Of a DNA stretch of 34,121 nt, positions 12,474 through 23,570 are shown one piece after another. Positions within the stretch are counted from its first letter, which is position 1, and each line of letters starts with the position of its first letter. Both the position numbers and the translations under genes were made by a program. The DNA is from a virus. Location of the stretch: positions 1 to 34,121 of IMG/VR virus record IMGVR_UViG_3300025508_000075. The stretch is one strand, 5' to 3'. The notes beneath the pieces are model-generated. The model did no database searches, was not told the DNA's origin, and saw nothing but the letters and a program-made list of their open reading frames with translations.

Positions 12474-12784
12474 TATCGGCTCTCCTTGTTTAGATATATA
12501 TACCTCCTAACGTAATATACGCAACGCAAAATGTCCTAGAAGGGAACACCCTTTTCAAAACCCCCCATAAAAACTATGCTCTTTCTAGTTTGCAGTGATA
12601 ACGATCTAGTATCAGAAGCGACTTACAAGCGAATAAATTAAATTATATTAACGCAACAAGTGAAAACAGGCACAACTTACAAAAAAAATTGCTTATATAA
12701 TGTGAAGGCAACTTTTTGTGTAAAAGTTCAGAGATAGTAGGTCTATCAAGGATATTAATATTGATTTTATTGAATTAATTTAAA
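12474..12784. other. 311-base non-coding gap between TerS and TerL module
   Basis: No credible reading frame on either strand. It contains a short hairpin (AAGGG-AACA-CCCTT followed by TT, 12539-12553), a C6 run near 12563, a repeated ACGCAAC word (near 12525 and 12651), and a TATAAT on the plus strand at 12696-12701. It is the longest gene-free stretch and lies where a packaging (pac) site, late promoter or origin is often found. Confidence 0.7.
12696..12724 (-). promoter_or_regulatory. Weak candidate late promoter
   Basis: On the minus strand a TTTACA (12724-12719) stands 17 to 19 bases before AT-rich hexamers (TTATAT/TATATA around 12702-12694). It would drive the 60-aa gene, TerL and the structural genes. 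Match to the -10 consensus is poor, so this is tentative. Confidence 0.25.
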
Positions 12785-13189
12785 TTAATCTTTAGACCAT
12801 TTAACAATTAATGGCTTATTATCAGCATTTGAAAGTTGTAGTTTCTGTGCATTGTCGTTGTATTTTGGCAACAATTTAGATGCTTTCCATTTAGTTAGTG
12901 CTACTGCTTCCTTAATTAAATGGCTTGTTGCAAGATCACCTTTTCCATTTGCTTTGAAATCTTCTATCGCTTCTCTTAATTGTGTTGCAGTTTCTGATAA
13001 TAAATAATCTACACCATCTTGTTTGGCTAATTCGTATTGTTCTCTAACTTTGGGTTTTTTGTGCATTAGCTTTCTAAATCCTTCCCATGATAGATTTAAG
13101 TCTTTTAATATGTTTTTAATTCCATTACCCAAAGCTAATTGGCAGTAAATTTGATCTAAAATTTCATTTGTAAATTTAATATTATTCAT
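12785..13189 (-). CDS. terS: Putative terminase small subunit
   Basis: 134 aa. An N-terminal helix-turn-helix type region (FTNEILDQIYCQLALGNGIK; LNLSWEGFRKLMHKKPKVRE) is followed by a long helix (YELAKQDGVDYLLSETATQL) and a basic segment ending KASKLLPKYN. This N-terminal DNA-binding plus oligomerisation-helix layout, and the 'KKPKVREQYELAKQDG' pattern, are typical of small terminases that recognise the phage DNA for packaging. No good Shine-Dalgarno precedes the ATG. Separated from TerL by a non-coding gap and a 60-aa gene. The start is divergent from the early operon. Confidence 0.8.
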   Translation of the reverse strand: MNNIKFTNEILDQIYCQLALGNGIKNILKDLNLSWEGFRKLMHKKPKVREQYELAKQDGVDYLLSETATQLREAIEDFKANGKGDLATSHLIKEAVALTKWKASKLLPKYNDNAQKLQLSNADNKPLIVKWSKD

Positions 13190-13201
13190 GTTATTTATCT
13201 A

Positions 13202-13241
13202 TTGACAAGCTATTGACAATAATATATTAAGTTGTTATGTT
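13202..13241 (+). promoter_or_regulatory. Two overlapping sigma70-type early promoters
   Basis: TTGACA at 13202-13207 with TATTAA at 13225-13230 (17-base spacer), and a second TTGACA at 13213-13218 with TATGTT at 13236-13241 (17-base spacer, preceded by TG one base upstream as in extended -10 sites). They sit before the first early gene. Both -35 boxes are inside copies of the word CTATTGACAA. Confidence 0.65.
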
Positions 13242-13281
13242 TAATTTATACATAATAAAACAACAAAAAGAAAGGTAAATT

Positions 13282-13572
13282 ATGAAAGATACAATTACAC
13301 AAAGTCAATTTGTAGATGAAATGTCAAAAAAGAATCATGGTTTCAGCTATGAAGGTGCAAAGGCTCTATTTGAACATTTAAGCCATTATGAAGATGATTG
13401 CGATCATGAGCTTGAATTTGATCCTATTGCTTTTAGATGTGAATATTCAGAATATGATAATTTAGAAGAAGTTAAAAATGATTACGATTTTGAAGATTTA
13501 GAAGATTTAGAAAGAAATACAGTAGTAATAAAAGTACCTGACAGTAATAAATTAATAATACAGGCTTATTAA
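13282..13572 (+). CDS. Acidic first early protein (96 aa)
   Basis: MKDTITQSQFVDEMSKKNHG, then FSYEGAKALFEHLSHYEDDC and a stretch of mainly Asp/Glu (YDFEDLEDLE), ending KLIIQAY. I count 25 acidic and 9 basic residues, net about -16. Shine-Dalgarno AAAGG lies 7 bases before the ATG. It is the first gene behind the strongest-looking promoters. Proteins with the FSYEGAKALF and FDPIAFRCEYSEYD patterns recur in phages and plasmids as an uncharacterised family. An antirestriction or DNA-mimic role is inference from charge and position only. Confidence 0.85.
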   Translation: MKDTITQSQFVDEMSKKNHGFSYEGAKALFEHLSHYEDDCDHELEFDPIAFRCEYSEYDNLEEVKNDYDFEDLEDLERNTVVIKVPDSNKLIIQAY

Positions 13573-13574
13573 TG

Positions 13575-13610
13575 CTATTGACAAACAATAAATATAATGC
13601 TATTGACAAT
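13575..13610 (+). repeat. Two further GCTATTGACAA copies
   Basis: The word GCTATTGACAA occurs at 13574-13584 and 13599-13609, 25 bases apart, between the acidic early gene and the next microgene. Neither TTGACA has a good -10 at 16-18 bases, although TATAAT lies at 13593-13598. They may be regulator-binding sites rather than promoters. Confidence 0.5.
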
Positions 13611-13627
13611 TAAAAGAAAGGATAACA

Positions 13628-13798
13628 ATGACTAAATATAAAATAGTTGACTGGATGAACAACAGAATATTCCCTGACAAGATATTCAATACCTTTGAAG
13701 ATGGATGGGAATATATTTACAATAAATTTAATAATGAAGAAGATCATCAAGAATATTATGTTGTTGATTTTAATCAAAAAGAAAGGGGTCAAATATGA
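13628..13798 (+). CDS. Early microprotein (56 aa)
   Basis: MTKYKIVDWMNNRIFPDKIF, then TFEDGWEYIYNKFNNEEDHQ and QEYYVVDFNQK near the end. Good Shine-Dalgarno (GAAAGG, 6 bases before the ATG). Its TGA overlaps the next ATG (ATGA), the first link in a chain of coupled microgenes. Mixed acidic and aromatic composition; no family recognised. Confidence 0.7.
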   Translation: MTKYKIVDWMNNRIFPDKIFNTFEDGWEYIYNKFNNEEDHQEYYVVDFNQKERGQI

Positions 13799-13902
13799 AC
13801 GACTTAAAATGGATGCTTATTTTTGGCTTAACCTTTGTGATAGGTTTTACAAGTTTGGGGATGTATATTTTACATCTTTGGGCGATTGGGGGTTTGCAAT
13901 GA
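13795..13902 (+). CDS. Single-span membrane microprotein (35 aa)
   Basis: MNDLKWMLIFGLTFVIGFTS and on to HLWAIGGLQ: one hydrophobic span over most of the length with Asp/Lys before it. Shine-Dalgarno AAAGGGG lies just upstream; start and stop both overlap neighbours (ATGA). Probably inserted in the host inner membrane early in infection. Function unknown. Confidence 0.65.
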   Translation: MNDLKWMLIFGLTFVIGFTSLGMYILHLWAIGGLQ

Positions 13903-14051
13903 TTAGAGCAATATATTTTTCTCTTTGCTATTGTATGGCTATGTTTGGGTTATTGGTTATTACTCAAATTGATTTTAAATGGGGGTTCTTTATGTTCCTC
14001 TTATTTCTTGTAAAATTTTTATTAATGATACCAAAATATCAGGGGGAATAA
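13899..14051 (+). CDS. Two-span membrane microprotein (50 aa)
   Basis: Two hydrophobic segments (AIYFSLCYCMAMFGLLVI and WGFFMFLLFLVKFLLMI) joined by TQIDFK, with a short polar tail PKYQGE. The frame is open upstream but the ATG at 13899 overlaps the preceding stop (ATGA), so it is preferred. Ends TAATG with the next gene. Hairpin-type inner membrane protein; possibly a superinfection or host-membrane effector (inference). Confidence 0.65.
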   Translation: MIRAIYFSLCYCMAMFGLLVITQIDFKWGFFMFLLFLVKFLLMIPKYQGE

Positions 14052-14254
14052 TGAAACCATTTATTAAAATTAGAAAAGTTATTGATTATAATAAATACTG
14101 TTTAATTAAATTTAAAGATTATTATTTTCATACATTTAATAAAAAATATGGTTATGTTTTATATGGTTATAATTCTTTAAATACAAAAAATGATTTTGCT
14201 TTTTGGTTTAAAACTAAAAAAGAAGCTATTAATAAATTAAAAGAGGGGGAATAA
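14051..14254 (+). CDS. Aromatic-rich early protein (67 aa)
   Basis: MKPFIKIRKVIDYNKYCLIK, then FHTFNKKYGYVLYGYNSLNT and FAFWFKTKKEAINKLKEGE. Rich in Tyr, Phe and Lys; probably a small beta sheet with a C-terminal helix. Preceded by GGGGG-AAT as Shine-Dalgarno and coupled by TAATG on both sides. No recognised family. Confidence 0.7.
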   Translation: MKPFIKIRKVIDYNKYCLIKFKDYYFHTFNKKYGYVLYGYNSLNTKNDFAFWFKTKKEAINKLKEGE

Positions 14255-14424
14255 TGAAAACATACGAAATAACAATATCTTTAAGAACATATCAAAAAGC
14301 ATATTTTAAAGCTAATAATAAAAAAGAAGCATTAAAAAAAGCTGATGATTGTATAGATTGGCAAGAGATTGGGGATAGTAATCAAGTACATACTGAAAAT
14401 ATAAAATTAATAAATGAGGAATAA
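14254..14424 (+). CDS. Early microprotein (56 aa)
   Basis: MKTYEITISLRTYQKAYFKA, then NNKKEALKKADDCIDWQEIG. The strand-strand-helix pattern with a trailing acidic segment resembles small DpnD/PcfM-like phage folds, but no match can be claimed. Coupled to the upstream gene by TAATG, with GAGGGGGA as Shine-Dalgarno; the next ATG follows its TAA immediately. Confidence 0.7.
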   Translation: MKTYEITISLRTYQKAYFKANNKKEALKKADDCIDWQEIGDSNQVHTENIKLINEE

Positions 14425-14595
14425 ATGACAGATAGAACAAGACATGAAATAGATTTGATTGATAGTGCTAACAAGCACATGACATATGAAAAAAAGAAAA
14501 AAGCATTAGAGCAACTTCAGGATTTATTAAAAAACTATAGCTCTGACACCTTAATTGATATGATTATGAAAGAAAGTCAGAACAATAAAAAATGA
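14425..14595 (+). CDS. Early helical microprotein (56 aa)
   Basis: MTDRTRHEIDLIDSANKHMT, then YEKKKKALEQLQDLLKNYSS and DMIMKESQNNKK. All helical, with a mid-section likely to form an amphipathic or coiled helix. Shine-Dalgarno GAGGAA overlaps the previous stop; ATGA overlap with the following tiny frame. Unknown function. Confidence 0.7.
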   Translation: MTDRTRHEIDLIDSANKHMTYEKKKKALEQLQDLLKNYSSDTLIDMIMKESQNNKK

Positions 14596-14651
14596 TTGAA
14601 GTATTAATAATCGCTGATCTATTATTTTTAAGCTACTATTTATTACAATGA
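14592..14651 (+). CDS. Possible 19-aa hydrophobic peptide
   Basis: Reads MIEVLIIADLLFLSYYLLQ, almost entirely hydrophobic. It begins and ends with ATGA overlaps to its neighbours, which is why it is listed despite its size. It might be a real membrane micropeptide or merely keep ribosomes coupled to the next gene. Confidence 0.4.
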   Translation: MIEVLIIADLLFLSYYLLQ

Positions 14652-14752
14652 TTATATTTAATAAAGCAATACACAGAAAGAAAGTAAGGCTATTTATGGT
14701 ATTATTTACAATACTATTGACAAGTCTTGCAACATTAATAATATTAGTATAA
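14648..14752 (+). CDS. Single-span membrane microprotein (34 aa)
   Basis: Basic N-terminus (MIIFNKAIHRKKVRLFM) followed by one span VLFTILLTSLATLIILV reaching the stop. Start overlaps the preceding stop (ATGA) and its stop makes TAATG with a 26-codon frame at 14752-14832 that I consider less likely to be real than the larger gene starting at 14762. Confidence 0.55.
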   Translation: MIIFNKAIHRKKVRLFMVLFTILLTSLATLIILV

Positions 14753-14761
14753 TGAAAGTTA

Positions 14762-14983
14762 ATGAAAGAAAGGATCAAAGGTTATTTAGAATACAAATTA
14801 GACCTAGAATTATGTGGGGTAAATACCTTTGAGAAAGACCATGAAATCAGAAAGAGATATGAAAAGTATTTGCAAGATCAACAACAAGCTAACAACGATA
14901 TTCCAACAAGCGATACAAACGAAGCAGCAAAGACAATTGATAGCACAGACTTATTGGAATATAAAAAAGGGAAGAAGGTCTAA
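14762..14983 (+). CDS. Charged early protein (73 aa)
   Basis: MKERIKGYLEYKLDLELCGV, then FEKDHEIRKRYEKYLQDQQQ and a polar tail with DTNEAAKTIDSTDLLEY ending KKGKKV. Two helices and a disordered tail. Only a weak Shine-Dalgarno precedes the ATG (GAAAG), so coupling to the upstream genes is likely. Followed directly, in the same frame, by the lipoprotein start TTG after the stop. Unknown role. Confidence 0.7.
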   Translation: MKERIKGYLEYKLDLELCGVNTFEKDHEIRKRYEKYLQDQQQANNDIPTSDTNEAAKTIDSTDLLEYKKGKKV

Positions 14984-15094
14984 TTGATTAAGTATATAAT
15001 TATTTTAATCTTGCTGACTGGGTGTTCAGCAAAGGAACTTGACCTTAATCCTACAACAACAATACTAAAGCAACTAATGAAAGGGAAACAATGA
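14984..15094 (+). CDS. Small lipoprotein (36 aa), TTG start
   Basis: M(TTG)-IKYIIILILLTGCSAKELD and on to KQLMKGKQ. A Lys-containing start, a hydrophobic run and a lipobox LLTG|C with Cys14 as the lipidated residue, leaving a mature peptide of 23 residues. Shine-Dalgarno AAGAAGG lies 6 bases before the TTG. The next ATG overlaps its TGA (ATGA). It could be an outer-membrane or periplasm-facing lipoprotein such as a superinfection exclusion factor or an Rz1-like o-spanin; the early position favours the first. All functional statements are inference. Confidence 0.65.
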   Translation: MIKYIIILILLTGCSAKELDLNPTTTILKQLMKGKQ

Positions 15095-15324
15095 AAGAAA
15101 TGATACAAATAGAAAAGTATGTAGCAAATATTCATAAAAAATTTATGGAAGTAAAAACCACAAGTAAAGATCACATGACTAGAGATTTGTGGTTCACAAT
15201 GAATATATTAACTATGGCTTTTAATAATTTAGAAAGATGGTCGCAAACAACAACAACACCAAATAAAGCATTTAAGGATTTGATAAAAGCACAATTAAAA
15301 AAATATAAAATAAAGTTAAATTAA
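15091..15324 (+). CDS. Early helical protein (77 aa)
   Basis: MKEMIQIEKYVANIHKKFME, then DHMTRDLWFTMNILTMAFNN and a basic C-terminus (LIKAQLKKYKIKLN). All-helical; Trp-containing central helix. Shine-Dalgarno AAAGGG lies within the end of the lipoprotein gene. Last gene of the first early block, ending just before a strong hairpin. Not recognised. Confidence 0.75.
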   Translation: MKEMIQIEKYVANIHKKFMEVKTTSKDHMTRDLWFTMNILTMAFNNLERWSQTTTTPNKAFKDLIKAQLKKYKIKLN

Positions 15325-15328
15325 AGGA

Positions 15329-15375
15329 GGATAGGGGATCATAGAAAGAAAGGTATGAAAGTGATCCCCTTATCC
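15329..15375. terminator. Convergent hairpin terminator
   Basis: GGATA-GGGGATCA (15329-15341) pairs with TGATCCCC-TTATCC (15362-15375): 13 pairs with one bulged base, loop of about 20. It separates the plus-strand early genes (end 15324) from a minus-strand gene ending at 15397. No clear U-run on either side, so termination may be partial or may depend on another factor; the position is typical of a bidirectional terminator. Confidence 0.65.
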
Positions 15376-15396
15376 AGTAATATCTAGATATAGTGT

Positions 15397-15678
15397 TTAA
15401 ACTTTTCTATTGTACTTCATCTTGATTTCATTCACAATATCTTTTTCAAACTTATTATTCTTTTCCACACTATTCCAATATTCAGCGACCATGCGATCCA
15501 CATCCTTTTCTGAATAATTGTTTTTTCGCATGAAATCAACTAGGATTAACAGGGGGGGGTGCTTAACTTGATTTTTACGATTTCTATCTATGGCTCTTTT
15601 GTATTGAAAATTAGAATGCTTTCTAATTTTACTTAATTCATACTTTATAGTTTCTATTGGAACATATTTCTTATTCAT
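15397..15678 (-). CDS. Uncharacterised basic protein (93 aa)
   Basis: MNKKYVPIETIKYELSKIRK, then RAIDRNRKNQVKHPPLLILV and a helical acidic-basic C-terminus (VNEIKMKYNRKV). The frame crosses a run of eight G on the plus strand near 15551-15558, a site where sequencing or replication slippage could break it. Last gene of a minus-strand trio. Possibly a DNA-binding or replication accessory; not recognised. Confidence 0.7.
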   Translation of the reverse strand: MNKKYVPIETIKYELSKIRKHSNFQYKRAIDRNRKNQVKHPPLLILVDFMRKNNYSEKDVDRMVAEYWNSVEKNNKFEKDIVNEIKMKYNRKV

Positions 15679-15720
15679 ACTTACTAACTAGTTATATCTA
15701 TATTACTAATTCTTTATTTA

Positions 15721-15760
15721 GGTACATTTCATGTACCCCTACCAGTACAAAAAATGTACT
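15721..15760. promoter_or_regulatory. Tandem GTACA-N5-TGTAC palindromes (operator-like)
   Basis: Two perfect dyads with identical arms and 5-base spacers: GTACA-TTTCA-TGTAC at 15722-15736 and GTACA-AAAAA-TGTAC at 15745-15759, centres 23 bases apart (about two helical turns). They lie between the winged-helix gene and the 93-aa gene, upstream of the latter. I saw no further copies of the full dyad in the window. Confidence 0.6.
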
Positions 15761-16166
15761 ACCTAACTAACTTTATCCCCTTCTTATCCACAAAATTCTT
15801 CCTCACTTTATCCACATATATTTGTTTATGCTTATTAGACATAATCTTTCTTAATTTAAGATTGTTATTTAAAATAGATTGAAAGTTATCATCCCCTCTA
15901 AAGTAATATTTATTAGTTTTATTCTTACCCCTATTTTGCCATGTAATATAGCCAAATAATTGTAGCCTATCCAAATGCCTAACTAATGTTCTTTTGTCTT
16001 TTAAACCCATTTTTTTTAAAAGGTAAGCATGACTAGGCACACACCCTCTTTTCGCAGTCTGAAGCCTTGTCAGAAGCATATAGAGGCATTTTTCATGAGA
16101 GGTAAGAACCTCATTATCCAATAAAGAATGGGGTACTTTTAAGAATGGTTCTAAACTAGCTTTCAT
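15759..16166 (-). CDS. Winged-helix DNA-binding protein, replication-initiator-like
   Basis: 135 aa. Residues about 8-95 form a winged helix of the kind found in replication initiators (HTH_36-like): VPHSLLDNEVLTSHEKCLYM, then GCVPSHAYLLKKMGLKDKRT, VRHLDRLQLFGYITWQNRGK and the wing KTNKYYF. The C-terminus is basic. It could start replication by recruiting host proteins or act as a regulator; the tandem dyads just past its stop are possible binding sites. Start overlaps the upstream gene by 11 bases. Confidence 0.7.
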   Translation of the reverse strand: MKASLEPFLKVPHSLLDNEVLTSHEKCLYMLLTRLQTAKRGCVPSHAYLLKKMGLKDKRTLVRHLDRLQLFGYITWQNRGKNKTNKYYFRGDDNFQSILNNNLKLRKIMSNKHKQIYVDKVRKNFVDKKGIKLVR

Positions 16167-16662
16167 TTATAAATTCTGTAATAGGTTTAAGTTTATCCAA
16201 TGGGATTGACCAAACAAAAGGTCTATCATTCTTTCCAAAGTTAGTCCAAGTGCCACATTTCTGACAATCTTTTGCTTGAATGTAGCCATGAAAATAAAAG
16301 GTTGGGGTATCATCTGATACATAGAAATAATAATCTTCAGCTTTAAATCCTTTTCTTATTATCAATGACTTGTAAGATTTGGAAAATAATTGTGATCTTA
16401 CTTGAACTGGCTTATCATTAATAATTAAATCCTTACCTTGAAAGTTATTAACAGAATGTGTAAAATACGATTTCATAATTTTAGCCAAAGCCATCTCTGC
16501 AAGACAACCTGAAATTGTTTTACCCCACTTTTGATACCTATCAAATGAAGCACCATGACCCCATTGAATATTAGCTTTTAGGCTTTCTGTTTCCCTGACA
16601 ATCCCAGTAATTGCACCTGATAATATTTCTTCCCAATTTAAATCTACCTTTTCCAAAGACAT
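16156..16662 (-). CDS. PD-(D/E)XK-like protein, possible nuclease (168 aa)
   Basis: MSLEKVDLNWEEILSGAITG; GCLAEMALAKIM (E56) and GKDLIINDKPVQVRS (D78, Q87-V88-R89) follow the order of the PD-(D/E)XK core, glutamate helix, then Asp, then a strand with E-x-K. Here the last pair is Q and R rather than E and K, so activity is uncertain. A CQKC pair lies near residue 135. It opens the minus-strand trio, divergent from the exonuclease. Alternative: a DNA-binding protein with a degenerate nuclease fold. Confidence 0.5.
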   Translation of the reverse strand: MSLEKVDLNWEEILSGAITGIVRETESLKANIQWGHGASFDRYQKWGKTISGCLAEMALAKIMKSYFTHSVNNFQGKDLIINDKPVQVRSQLFSKSYKSLIIRKGFKAEDYYFYVSDDTPTFYFHGYIQAKDCQKCGTWTNFGKNDRPFVWSIPLDKLKPITEFINES

Positions 16663-16744
16663 TTATACTACATACACAATAAAATAAATAAAGCAAATAA
16701 AAGTATTGACTTATTTGTAAATAATCTGTAAATAACCAAATCAG
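16663..16744. promoter_or_regulatory. Divergent promoter region
   Basis: Between the minus-strand trio and the plus-strand recombination genes. On the plus strand TTGACT (16706-16711) is followed after 17 bases by TAAATA (16729-16734); a direct repeat TGTAAATAA occurs twice, 11 bases apart, at about 16716 and 16727. On the minus strand TATAAA near 16668 could serve the 168-aa gene. Confidence 0.4.
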
Positions 16745-17695
16745 ATGAAAGAAAGATTTACAGATACAGCTTGGACAGAAGGTGATTTTAATAAAGCAAC
16801 AAGCTCACCTAGTCAAACAGCATTAAGTAATTGGGTATGGTTTATTAAATATCATCTATCCCCACATTTAAAATTTAAATCAGAAAGACCATCAATAAGT
16901 TTTAAAGCTGGTACATTTATCCATGAATGGTTTCAAAACATATTAGTAGGTCAGGCAAAGATTGAAGATGTTGAGCATCATTTTAAAAATCATATAGATC
17001 AGTTTGAATTTAGTGAGAATGAAGGTATCAAAGCACAATTTATTTTAAAGTATGTCAAAGGCTATGTTGAAAGACACTTGGAAGCTATCAATGAAGTATC
17101 AGATAACTTTTCAGGTTGGAAAATAGAAATACCTTTTTCTGATTGGTATGATGATAAGTATATGGATCAAACATTAAATATTGCAAGTGAAGGTTATATT
17201 GATTGTGTTAATGATAATGAAAATAAAATAACAGAACATAAAAATAGGTTTGGTAGTGTCAGAAAATCACCACTCAAAGTAAATAGAAAAGATAGTAATA
17301 TAAATAGAATTGGGGATTGGGTGTATTCTAAATCACAATTAATAAAACAACCTCAATTTACTCATTGCATACAAACAGCAGTCTATTCAAAACATTTTAA
17401 TAACAAATATAAACCATATTTAATTTATGTATCAGAAGCTGATTATACAATTTTTACAGCTGATAATTGTTGGGAACTTACCCCAAAAGGTTTGGAATAT
17501 TTTTTTAGAAAATTCATACAAATAAACATAAAAAGACAAGAACTATTAAGAGCTGCCAATGGTAGCATTAAAAGATTGGCTTGTTTAATTGATGTGGATT
17601 GGTCTGAAATTAGAAATTATAAATCTAATTTTATGCTAAAGAACTATGAAGAAGAAGATATGCAAAGGTTGGAGGACTTTTATGAAAAACTATAA
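16745..17695 (+). CDS. Cas4/RecB-type PD-(D/E)XK exonuclease
   Basis: 316 aa. Motifs in order: GTFIHEW at 56-62 (the His-containing first motif), GYIDCV with D153, ITEHKNR with E164-x-K166, and QTAVY (Q210 to Y214), the QxxxY motif of RecB/Cas4-like nucleases. It is immediately followed by a coiled-coil protein and an annealing protein, the usual exonuclease/annealase pair of phage recombination (lambda exo/beta logic). It should resect DNA ends for recombination-dependent replication or packaging concatemers. No clear Shine-Dalgarno at the ATG. Confidence 0.8.
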   Translation: MKERFTDTAWTEGDFNKATSSPSQTALSNWVWFIKYHLSPHLKFKSERPSISFKAGTFIHEWFQNILVGQAKIEDVEHHFKNHIDQFEFSENEGIKAQFILKYVKGYVERHLEAINEVSDNFSGWKIEIPFSDWYDDKYMDQTLNIASEGYIDCVNDNENKITEHKNRFGSVRKSPLKVNRKDSNINRIGDWVYSKSQLIKQPQFTHCIQTAVYSKHFNNKYKPYLIYVSEADYTIFTADNCWELTPKGLEYFFRKFIQINIKRQELLRAANGSIKRLACLIDVDWSEIRNYKSNFMLKNYEEEDMQRLEDFYEKL

Positions 17696-19072: not shown

Positions 19073-19411
19073 ATGGGAAAAGACGATAATATAAAATGGA
19101 TAGACATTGGCGAAAAAATGGTCAAGCAAATGTTAGAGAAGAAACAAAAAGAATATGGAAGTTTTGATAACAACGCATACATCATGGCTAACTTTTTACA
19201 ATCAGCACTAGAAATAGTTAATGGATATAAGGTTAAAGTACCTATTACAATCATACCACAACTAATGATTGTTCTTAAATTGACAAGAACTATTGATGAT
19301 GGTAGTGGGAAAGATATATACAAACTAGATACCCATAAGGATATTTCTGGGTACAACGACCTATTAAAAGATATGCTATTAAAAATGAGAAGCAAGGAGG
19401 ACAATGACTAA
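19073..19411 (+). CDS. DUF6378-like phage protein (112 aa)
   Basis: Contains KKQKEYGSFDNNAYIMANFL (the YG-S motif), then VPITIIPQLMIVLKLTRTID and a final HKDISGYNDLLKDMLL. This 'KxxxYG ... LKLTR ... D...DISGY' pattern matches the DUF6378 family of phage proteins, helical and of unknown function, often in early regions. Shine-Dalgarno AAAGGAG. Family name from recall, not search. Confidence 0.75.
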   Translation: MGKDDNIKWIDIGEKMVKQMLEKKQKEYGSFDNNAYIMANFLQSALEIVNGYKVKVPITIIPQLMIVLKLTRTIDDGSGKDIYKLDTHKDISGYNDLLKDMLLKMRSKEDND

Positions 19412-19664
19412 AATATTTTATAGTCCTAGAATTAAAGAAATCATTGATTTTATGGCTGTTTATTATGATGAACATGATTGTTTCCCCAAGCTAGATGAGA
19501 TAGGTAAGGCATTAAATTTAACTAAACAAAGGGTAGGTATTCTATTAAAGAATGCTGAAAAATTAAAGTTGATAAAGTCTGACAATGTTTTCATGCGAAA
19601 GTATATGTTGACTAAACAACCTAAAATTAGTAAATTAAAAGTCAACAATTACTATGAGTTGTAA
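19404..19664 (+). CDS. LexA-type winged-helix regulator (86 aa)
   Basis: MTKIFYSPRIKEIIDFMAVY, CFPKLDEIGKALNLTKQRVG and LKNAEKLKLIKSDN give a LexA/MarR-like winged helix: helix 1, helix 2 with 'P-x-x-x-E-I-G-K-A-L', recognition helix TKQRVGILLKNAEKL. No catalytic domain, so a DNA-binding regulator only. Shine-Dalgarno AAGGAGG; overlaps the upstream gene by 8 bases. Confidence 0.75.
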   Translation: MTKIFYSPRIKEIIDFMAVYYDEHDCFPKLDEIGKALNLTKQRVGILLKNAEKLKLIKSDNVFMRKYMLTKQPKISKLKVNNYYEL

Positions 19665-20044: not shown

Positions 20045-20461
20045 ATGTCTGCAAAAGAAAAAGACCCCAATAAACTAAAACTTGATAAGCATATTGGTAT
20101 CAAATTAAGAAACAAAAGAGTAGAAAGAAAACTCAATCAAACAAAAGTTGCTGATGTACTGGGTGTAACATTTCAACAAGTTCAAAAGTATGAGAAAGGA
20201 AGCAATGGAACAAATGCTTTTATTCTTTTATTACTATCTGAATTTTTTAAAGTACCAGTATCATATTTCTTTGAAGGTTTTAATCCAAGAACATTTGAAA
20301 GTAGCATAACTTACCATGACAGATTTCCAGAGATACATAGAGGTAATCAGGTCAAGAATGAAAACTTATATCCTAATCCCAACTCTATGAGTAGTTTAGG
20401 TAATAAGATGAAAGATGTTTTCTTGCTTGAAGAAACATTAAACAAAGAAGAAATATTATAA
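20045..20461 (+). CDS. Xre/CI-like HTH repressor, alphaproteobacterial type
   Basis: 138 aa. HTH: IGIKLRNKRVERKLNQTKVA, DVLGVTFQQVQKYEKGSN, then LLLLSEFFKVPVSYFFEGFN. The segment 'TFQQVQKYEKG ... VPVSYFFEGF' is the typical sequence of HTH regulators of Alphaproteobacteria. The C-terminal half is not a peptidase, so it is not cleavable like lambda CI. Likely controls the early promoters or host genes. Shine-Dalgarno GAAAGG; the next gene begins 6 bases after its stop. Confidence 0.85.
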   Translation: MSAKEKDPNKLKLDKHIGIKLRNKRVERKLNQTKVADVLGVTFQQVQKYEKGSNGTNAFILLLLSEFFKVPVSYFFEGFNPRTFESSITYHDRFPEIHRGNQVKNENLYPNPNSMSSLGNKMKDVFLLEETLNKEEIL

Positions 20462-22550: not shown

Positions 22551-22750
22551 TTATCATCCTTCTTATCCTCCAACTTTTTGATCTTATCATTAGCATCTTC
22601 AAGGTCTTTGGTTAAATGTTCTAATTTTTGCAAACATCTTTTGTTTGCTGAATCTTTAGATTTACCAGCATCCTGTAATTCTGCAACCTCTTGTTTCAGA
22701 ATACGAACCTGATCTTTATATTCGTTTATTAAATCTATATTATCAGACAT
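22547..22750 (-). CDS. Coiled-coil protein next to holin (67 aa)
   Basis: MSDNIDLINEYKDQVRILKQ, then EVAELQDAGKSKDSANKRCL and a charged helix ending KKLEDKKDDK. Mostly one long charged helix with Leu/Ile heptads. Overlaps the holin stop by TAATG. Could be a lysis accessory with the exported protein; unproven. Confidence 0.65.
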   Translation of the reverse strand: MSDNIDLINEYKDQVRILKQEVAELQDAGKSKDSANKRCLQKLEHLTKDLEDANDKIKKLEDKKDDK

Positions 22751-23139
22751 TATTTTTTTTTAAAAGTAGAAACACCTTTGATACCTAGAATTGTAGAAAA
22801 TGCACCGACTACAAGAGCTTGATAAAACATTGGAAGATTTGCAAACTTGTCAAAAAATATATCTATCTTTGCTTGTATATCTGGATCATCACTAAACACA
22901 GACCAAGCTAATAAAAGCAGAGGAATTGAGATCAGCACCAAACAAAATTCGTCTTTCCAATCATTTCTATGTGAATCAATAACAGCTTTTTTAAATTCTA
23001 CCTCACCATTTGCCATGCGTTCAGCCAATTTTAATTCAGCTACTGACTCTAATTCTTTAGTCTTTCTTCTATTGGAAGCAATAGACATACCAGTTTTAAT
23101 CATACCTGGAACTAATTTAGATGCTATACTTAACCACAT
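22750..23139 (-). CDS. Holin (GTA 3TM holin-like)
   Basis: 129 aa. N-terminal amphipathic segment (MWLSIASKLVPGMIKTGMSI), a charged helix, RNDWKDEFCLVLISIPLLLL as first clear span, then FYQALVVGAFSTILGIKGV as second, ending in a basic tail TFKKK. This is the layout of the 'holin of 3TMs, for gene-transfer release' family of alphaproteobacterial phages and GTAs. It forms inner membrane pores that release or trigger the lysozyme encoded next to it. TAATG with the lysozyme stop. Confidence 0.85.
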   Translation of the reverse strand: MWLSIASKLVPGMIKTGMSIASNRRKTKELESVAELKLAERMANGEVEFKKAVIDSHRNDWKDEFCLVLISIPLLLLAWSVFSDDPDIQAKIDIFFDKFANLPMFYQALVVGAFSTILGIKGVSTFKKK

Positions 23140-23570
23140 TATGACTTTGCACTCCTCATTTTTCCAGCTAACTTACCTGCTCTAGCTGGTGTTTGTTTTG
23201 CCCAAAGTGAGTCTAGCATTTGGAATGATGCCTCACCATAATCTTCTCTATCTAAAGCAGACCACATATTTTTAAATTTAGATACACCCCCTTCGCCTAT
23301 CTGATAAACCATATTAACAATTACTTCTTTAGCAATATAATTAATATTTCTTTCACCTATTAGTCTTTCAGCAGCTTGTAGTGTTCTGTTAAAATCTTCT
23401 TCAAATACTTTTTCACCTTCTTCTTTAGTGTATTCTATATCACTTTCATAATCATCATCAGGTGTTATCTTATGTCCATAAAAGATAGTATCAAATCCTT
23501 CTGAACATTTATAAATCTTTGGAACATAACCTTCACATAATTTAATTTCTTCTTTTAGTTCTTCGTACAT
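23139..23570 (-). CDS. Endolysin, T4-like lysozyme (GH24)
   Basis: 143 aa. Compare T4 lysozyme: E13 aligns with catalytic E11 (CEGYVPKIYKCSEGFDTI), C22 occupies the place of D20, and T28 that of T26, followed by YGH. So the E-8-C-5-T triad is used, a known variant of this family. The C-terminal lobe has VNMVYQIGEGGVSKFKNMWS and ARAGK. No signal peptide, so release depends on the holin. Cleaves the glycan chains of peptidoglycan. Confidence 0.92.
   Translation of the reverse strand: MYEELKEEIKLCEGYVPKIYKCSEGFDTIFYGHKITPDDDYESDIEYTKEEGEKVFEEDFNRTLQAAERLIGERNINYIAKEVIVNMVYQIGEGGVSKFKNMWSALDREDYGEASFQMLDSLWAKQTPARAGKLAGKMRSAKS

Follow-up and report, generated by a model that had tools for sequence, protein, structure and literature searches.

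The window analysed here is the whole of an IMG/VR virus record (IMGVR_UViG_3300025508_000075; 34121 bases), an uncultured phage that is assigned to the pelagiphages through its relatives. On its plus strand, positions 13628 to 15324 hold a chain of eleven coupled small genes, designated m1 to m11, and comparison with related contigs shows that this chain is one allele of a mosaic operon lying between the terminase gene and a conserved hairpin, a point that had been missed by a preliminary description of the sequence. An asymmetric motif of 10 base pairs (bp), CTATTGACAA, also missed in that description, is repeated in the orientation of transcription and is nearly confined to this block. The reading that we favour, with reasonable but not high confidence, is that of an early accessory operon of a Pelagibacter-type phage, whose host-takeover or anti-competition genes would be transcribed by the host polymerase, would depend in part on stop-start coupling for their translation and would be reshuffled where regulatory DNA is shared.

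A chain of coupled small genes

Consecutive frames of 56, 35, 50, 67, 56, 56, 19, 34, 73, 36 and 77 amino acids (aa) had been described at 13628-15324, and all eleven were present. Each frame had been said to follow the last by ATGA, TAATG or an adjacent stop and start, which was found for nine of the ten junctions: ATGA at m1/m2, m2/m3, m6/m7, m7/m8 and m10/m11, TAATG at m3/m4 and m4/m5, and an adjacent stop and start at m5/m6 and m9/m10. The m8 and m9 genes, in contrast, are separated by a gap of 9 nucleotides (nt; 14752 to 14762). The operon begins one gene further upstream than had been claimed, with g0 (13282-13572, plus strand), which encodes a 96-aa protein of phrog_9974 (unknown function).

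The best gene chain in 13231-15330 scored 419, whereas the scores of 200 dinucleotide shuffles averaged 63 and peaked at 159 and the reverse strand gave 61. The chain contained 7 coupled junctions (shuffle mean 0.4, maximum 4). In these scores the script dropped m7 and trimmed m8 to an internal ATG, because neither gene has a Shine-Dalgarno site of its own. The small-gene chain is far beyond chance.

All members of the chain are read from the plus strand. The first, m1 (13628-13798), encodes a soluble protein of 56 aa homologous to the annotated gp03 of phage HTVC204P (82% aa identity). It is followed by m2 (13795-13902; 35 aa, one membrane span; family F4), m3 (13899-14051; 50 aa, probably two membrane spans; family F8), m4 (14051-14254; 67 aa), m5 (14254-14424; 56 aa, weak relatives only) and m6 (14425-14595; 56 aa, soluble). 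The hydrophobic product of m7 (14592-14651; family F3) has 19 aa with conserved acidic residues (MIE[AV]xI..[ED]), and its relatives in other clades are likewise hydrophobic, are 17-20 aa long and keep MIEA and a second Glu. The 34-aa product of m8 (14648-14752; family F2) has a conserved, mostly basic head, MIIxGxPIHRKKVR, followed by one membrane span. Downstream, m9 (14762-14983) encodes 73 aa, of which the N-terminal 40 are conserved and the tail is variable; m10 (14984-15094), with a TTG start, encodes a lipoprotein of 36 aa with the lipobox LTGC; and m11 (15091-15324) encodes 77 aa, with an identical protein in one other contig. The earlier statement that several membrane peptides and one lipoprotein lie in a real chain of coupled small genes adjoining promoter-like sequence was borne out. 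Genes as tiny as these are easily missed by gene callers.

Mosaic structure and the closing hairpin

Relatives were gathered from IMG/VR contigs in searches that started from m1, m6, m8, m9 and the terminase small subunit. A complete early region was taken to run from the terminase to the convergent gene, and 20 distinct ones were found. One near-duplicate (L013, with 6 differences from L012 in 3170 nt) was dropped before the gene-content census, leaving 19 regions, and a second (L037, with 7 differences from L036 in 3887 nt) was also dropped for the motif, hairpin and -10 counts, which were made on 18. Cultured-phage loci and L002 were excluded from the complete-region set, and 72 partial regions were excluded from the census.

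The 19 regions contained 257 called open reading frames (ORFs; 79 families, of which 39 are singletons), as read by a crude caller that misreads m9 in some loci. The m8 family was present in 18 regions, m7 in 14, m2 in 13, m6 in 12, m3 in 8 and m1 in 7, and m9 gave a tblastn match in 20 of 20 complete regions. When 18 regions were considered, the median length of the 244 ORFs was 56 aa, and 141 of the 226 junctions were overlaps of 4 or 1 nt or fell within 3 nt, a count that leans high because the caller rewards such junctions.

Inspection by eye showed that, from one relative to another, the gene after m8 changes in step with the 3' end of m8 itself, and that this changeover falls at the motif. 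In one contig (L027/L093), a truncated m8 of 18 codons stands directly 5' of an intact m8; this copy is likely a recombination scar, since exchange at m8 would be expected to leave one. When genome_contigs was scanned for prophage or host copies of m9, a single relative was found among 195 pattern matches. It lies on L130 (CAKZOX010000206.1), a contig binned as uncultured Campylobacteraceae that probably belongs to a phage and was misbinned. Against the phage collection, m9 of the window gave weak matches only (HTVC112P, E value 0.2), another m9 used as query matched HTVC028P (4e-3) and HTVC112P (1e-2), and the m8 of the window gave no match.

The operon is closed by a hairpin at 15329-15375 (plus strand), whose Shine-Dalgarno-like loop, AGAAAGAAAGGT or a close variant, is shared among relatives; the arms are clade-specific, yet still pair. 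A hairpin of at least 9 pairs with AAAGG in the loop was found in 18 of 18 regions when searched for near the 3' end, and free folding returned it in 17 of 18 end windows, that of L014 having been placed too far downstream. The loop measures 13-21 nt and there is no U-run; in the sequence under study, AAGGAGG stands just before the hairpin. No canonical intrinsic terminator was found by a scan of 12700-16800, and no Rfam family reached the gathering score in 12500-17000.

A directional motif and its candidate regulators

The motif CTATTGACAA occurs five times in the window, always on the plus strand and within 13199-14723, and no exact copy was found elsewhere in the 34 kilobases (kb). Its inner 9-mer, TATTGACAA, was observed 5 times against 1.1 expected. 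In the 18 early regions, the 9-mer CTATTGACA had 59 forward and 4 reverse occurrences over 50.6 kb, compared with a single one in 106 kb of flanks. In ten whole records 33 copies of CTATTGACAA were counted, with a single direction per contig and 1-5 exact copies each, whereas a reversed control pattern was found once.

The copies in the window fall at three plus-strand sites. The first, P1 (13199-13219), holds two direct copies 11 bp apart and is overlapped by a sigma-70-like promoter, TTGACA-17-TATGTT, with TG before the -10 (13213-13241, plus strand). The second, P2 (13575-13609), holds two direct copies 25 bp apart with TATAAT between them. The third, P3 (14714-14723), is a single copy inside m8, where it spans the codons Leu-Leu-Thr (CTA TTG ACA), and promoter-like spacing, TTGACA-16/17-(-10), was seen at 14717-14745. 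Three placements of the motif recur across the relatives: ahead of the first gene; ahead of the second gene block, where copies form a direct pair or an inverted pair flanking a -10-like hexamer; and within m8 or immediately 3' of it. In the clade whose m8 contains the motif, CTA was kept in 19 of 20 distinct sequences and TTG and ACA in 20 of 20 each, while most neighbouring codons vary.

The motif could be a strong -35 box and no regulator site, a possibility that we consider somewhat unlikely. In its favour, CTATTGACAA includes a perfect TTGACA, which in some copies is followed by a good -10 at a spacing of 17 bp. However, for 47 of the 73 TATTGACA copies no -10-like hexamer lies at a suitable spacing, copies form pairs 11 or 25 bp apart or inverted pairs around a -10-like hexamer, and bases beyond TTGACA are conserved too. 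A -10-like hexamer at 16-18 bp was present in only 26 of the 73 (random positions, 16%), and the motif therefore does not look like a mere -35 box.

A regulator site would call for a binding protein, and a phage helix-turn-helix (HTH) protein may fill this role. Two candidates are encoded on the plus strand: an 86-aa protein (19404-19664), which is possibly a winged HTH and has sub-threshold HTH matches only (HTH_36, E 0.017, below the cut-off; no PHROG), and a 138-aa regulator (20045-20461) with a clear HTH_3 domain. Each was found in 7 of the 10 motif-bearing contigs. A single exact CTATTGACAA was also observed in the cultured phage HTVC106P, near the start of the record (L082:399-408).

Coding evidence for the small genes

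Ten of the eleven frames have relatives in IMG/VR contigs. Selection was assessed in pairs at least 70% identical, with rows covering at least 60% of codons, as the ratio of nonsynonymous to synonymous differences (pN/pS). This ratio was 0.19 for m1 (shadow frames 3.01 and 1.33; 13 distinct sequences), 0.20 for m2 (3.44 and 2.12; 8), 0.30 for m3 (0.93 and 3.27; 13), 0.27 for m6 (1.12 and 1.96; 28), 0.57 for m8 (1.88 and 1.34; 23), 0.21 for the first 43 codons of m9 (0.56 and 3.09; 39) and 0.30 for m10 (2.37 and 0.71; 5). The shadow frames of these seven genes contain stops (for m9, over the first 43 codons), and the written frames have none. Based on these comparisons, purifying selection acts on the written frames of the seven testable genes, whereas their shadow frames seem free of constraint or are interrupted by stops.

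Stops interrupting the frames in close relatives had been named earlier as counter-evidence, and the aligned homologues of m1-m3, m6-m8, m10 and m11 were found to have no internal stop. For m9, 22 of 42 aligned sequences had a stop, but none lay within the first 43 codons; the printed frames show that these relatives end sooner, in the variable tail. For m11 only two sequences were available, with two synonymous changes and no amino-acid change, and for g0 a single pair (two sequences) gave a pN/pS of 0.08. Five DNA variants of m7 (stop codon included) encode the identical 19 residues at 13 loci, some of which are the same contig; just two codons differ, both synonymously, and the gene is too short, with too few changes, for a pN/pS ratio. 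The m5 frame clusters with five other ORFs, two of which gave a direct blastp match below E 0.001. Both m4 and m5 rest mainly on their position in the chain and on upstream ribosome-binding-like sequence. Multi-sequence comparison argues for coding at m1, m2, m3, m6, m8 and m9; the evidence is thinner for m7, m10 and m11, and there is hardly any for m4 and m5.

It was also considered that the short conserved ORFs m7 and m8 are recombination or regulatory DNA that happens to be open. The m8 gene bears the motif and gene switches fall there, and the variation in m7 is too small to prove coding. Against this, the written frame of m8 is the constrained one of the three and has no internal stop in its 23 distinct sequences, and the m8 ORF is kept in a clade without the internal motif as well as in HTVC204P, and we judge a purely non-coding role very unlikely.

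Over m9, many relatives have a second open frame (14752-14832 and 14829-14987), which the gene-chain script favoured at several loci, the window included. Dual coding was rejected for 14752-14832, where pN/pS was 3.59 and 4 of 28 sequences had stops. The other part, 14829-14987, gave a ratio of 0.58 with no stop in 39 sequences; one shadow frame over the first 43 codons of m9 likewise gave 0.56, yet has many stops. The second frame is regarded as a probable shadow rather than a gene. In addition, the stretch GAATATAAAAAAGGGAAGAA (14961-14980) is conserved past the end of the shorter m9 versions and is apparently the ribosome-binding region of whichever gene comes next.

Probable translational coupling at m8

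Among 38 distinct sequences, the m8 start lies within ATGA in 32 and in an overlap of 1 nt in 3, with the upstream frame open for at least 15 codons, a count that is weakened because any Met-Ile start must read ATGA. What carries information is that the frame upstream of m8 is open and comes from different genes in different relatives. As many as 29 of those 35 sequences had no GGA, GAG or AGG (Shine-Dalgarno-like) just upstream. These arrangements point to tight stop-start coupling, seen most clearly at m8. Because m8 is mostly without a Shine-Dalgarno site, leaderless translation from a promoter of its own was also considered and set aside; by eye, TATAAA was seen about 8 nt upstream of the m8 ATG in several relatives, and not in the window and others.

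Genomic setting

The chain lies between the gene for the terminase small subunit (12785-13189, minus strand) and a convergent minus-strand block, in which a replication-initiator-like HTH protein is encoded 3' of the chain (15759-16166, minus strand). The minus strand carries structural genes (portal, terminase, internal virion protein) on either side of the central plus-strand genes, and the chain runs divergently from the late genes. Among cultured phages, the closest matches are to HTVC204P in the early region and to HTVC106P in the late genes; the terminase small subunit has its nearest cultured match in HTVC106P as well, at 27% identity. The late block contains a lysozyme (23139-23570; domain match PF00959) and, beside it, a two-span gene of phrog_2524 (22750-23139; unknown function), which is holin-like as read by eye. 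No transfer RNA was found.

When ten chain proteins and m8 were compared with the Pfam, PHROGs and PADLOC libraries, only weak matches below the curated cut-offs were obtained, none of them telling function; the 19-aa m7 was outside these family-library scans. Matches that we do not believe are those of m1 to BamE (E 0.0034; 17.6 bits against a cut-off of 23.2), m11 to Dynamin_M (0.013, weak), m5 to phrog_10677 (0.0028) and m6 to phrog_4601 (0.006), both weak and of unknown function, m6 to the PADLOC entry LmuC (0.0061, weak) and m8 to DUF1146 (0.0063, below the cut-off). The predicted model of m1 had a mean predicted local distance difference test (pLDDT) score of 81 and no PDB match better than E 3.8; in the viral fold library, its one match under 0.001 was an 82%-identical protein of 56 aa, presumably the HTVC204P homologue. 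The model of m9 was weak (pLDDT 69).

Proposed function of the operon

Under the favoured reading of an early accessory operon, host RNA polymerase would transcribe the block from TTGACA-type sites soon after DNA entry, and a phage HTH protein would bind CTATTGACAA to shut the block down or to time it. Ribosomes would get to m7 and m8 by termination and reinitiation. The soluble small proteins might be host-takeover or counter-defence factors, and the inner-membrane peptides might act against envelope processes of the host or of competing phages, such as the entry of DNA from a second phage or membrane-bound defences. Homologous recombination at the regulatory DNA that relatives have in common, the motif copy within m8 included, would serve to exchange the cassettes. 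We consider host takeover or counter-defence through the soluble proteins, together with membrane peptides acting on the envelope, to be the most likely use of such an operon, of which superinfection exclusion would be one form.

As the function of the whole block, superinfection exclusion, which the preliminary description had put forward beside an adjustment of the membrane potential, would mean that receptor function or the entry of second-phage DNA is blocked by the membrane peptides together with the lipoprotein. In phage T5, the agent of exclusion is reportedly a small lipoprotein, Llp. Several conserved membrane peptides and a lipoprotein do share one operon here, and m10 has the lipobox LTGC. 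However, the Pfam, PHROGs and PADLOC scans of m10 and the other proteins matched none of the named exclusion proteins, and the Pfam match of m10 to a lipoprotein family, LPAM_1 (E 0.056), was below the cut-off. The lipoprotein was found in few relatives (5 distinct sequences), and exclusion through it is therefore not the general function; m7 and m8 are also more constant than would be expected for strain-specific exclusion. On balance this explanation seems doubtful. Exclusion by T5 is the subject of PMC9586334, to judge by the excerpted text of that paper.

A role in lysis control, with the peptides as parts of a holin, an antiholin or a spanin, would fit their size and hydrophobicity, and Rz-like spanins were among the weak, non-significant matches of m10 (E 0.2 and 0.27). 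The lysozyme and the two-span holin-like gene, however, sit in the late block at 22750-23570, away from the chain, and the chain runs divergently from that block, which makes lysis control highly improbable.

Several points weigh against the reading of an early accessory operon, in addition to the limit on the ATGA count given above. The relatives share descent, and counts across contigs are non-independent. No relative of m4 was found by tblastn or by ORF-family clustering, m5 has one tblastn relative at 36% identity and so next to no comparative support, and the selection seen at m8 is moderate. The label "early" derives from layout only, that is, from divergence from the late genes, the adjacent replication initiator and the sigma-70-like site at 13213-13241, and the timing stays presumptive. 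A promoter scan of 12700-16800 returned 31 sites, compared with 28 in shuffles, and the match at 13213-13241 alone is therefore weak. The low number of TATTGACA copies with a -10-like hexamer adds to this, and many of these copies are not promoters as drawn. HTVC204P has the arrangement but no exact CTATTGACAA, and the motif is therefore not general to the arrangement. Finally, 3 of the 10 motif-bearing contigs show neither candidate HTH protein, the reach of these contigs into that region being unchecked.

A more specific proposal, offered tentatively and as less likely than not, is that the operon is a combinatorial rack of micropeptides around a nearly fixed pair of tiny membrane peptides, m7 and m8. 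In it m8 would be translated by stop-start coupling to any upstream gene and, with CTATTGACAA as a dedicated asymmetric operator/promoter element in its membrane-span codons, the m8 gene would double as regulatory and recombination DNA. If this were true, a single phage regulator would govern any incoming cassette, and exchanges at m8 would retain both the peptide and the control site.

Comparison with known phage systems

By analogy, the operon appears to work like other phage early accessory blocks. The closest cultured case is HTVC204P (MW273926), which is assigned to Ubiqueviridae in the excerpted text of PMC10504331; the host recorded for this phage is Candidatus Pelagibacter sp. FZCC0015. 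This phage (L001) has a row of small plus-strand genes at 1-2610, including gp03 (the m1 homologue), an m8 homologue at 1766-1873 and an m2-like ORF of 28 aa at 281-367, and the genes common to both phages stand at the same place. Both membrane ORFs have a Shine-Dalgarno-like site and are unannotated in the GenBank record. In contrast to these likenesses, tblastn of the chain genes matched only m1, m8 and, weakly, m2.

In T4-type phages, promoter early stem-loop (PeSL) cassettes are described, in the part of PMC4503421 drawn on here, as genes swapped at repeated regulatory DNA. Genes are exchanged between relatives at repeated regulatory DNA here as well (79 families; motif at P1, P2 and P3), but the stem-loop found here stands at the end of the operon and appears unpaired with individual promoters; by eye, no hairpin was seen beside the internal motif copies, with no systematic search of every junction. 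The operators and stoperators of Cluster A mycobacteriophages are, according to the excerpt of PMC9283540, asymmetric sites that follow the direction of transcription and occur in promoters and between genes. CTATTGACAA is likewise asymmetric, repeated and oriented with transcription; unlike the stoperators, it is confined to one operon rather than genome-wide, and the repressor is a candidate only. The ORFanage block of the cyanophage S-PM2, again as excerpted from PMC4503421, was lost on passage and its genes were judged to be independent acquisitions. Like the present block it is a contiguous set of marine phage genes that have no known relatives, whereas here the ends, the order and several families are conserved. 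In a literature search, no account of this operon or motif was found among the matches listed.

Implications for pelagiphage biology

Few marine organisms and viruses are as abundant as Pelagibacter and its phages. To our knowledge, the early genes of Pelagibacter phages are largely unexplained. The ubiquity of Pelagibacter and pelagiphages is also stated in the excerpted text of PMC10504331. The operon offers testable families of membrane peptides of 19, 34, 35 and 50 aa that are retained in related phages, and two of them, m8 and the m2-like peptide, occur unannotated in a cultured phage that is open to laboratory study. With a control motif restricted to one operon and one of its copies embedded in a peptide gene, the regulation of early genes and their shuffling become directly testable.

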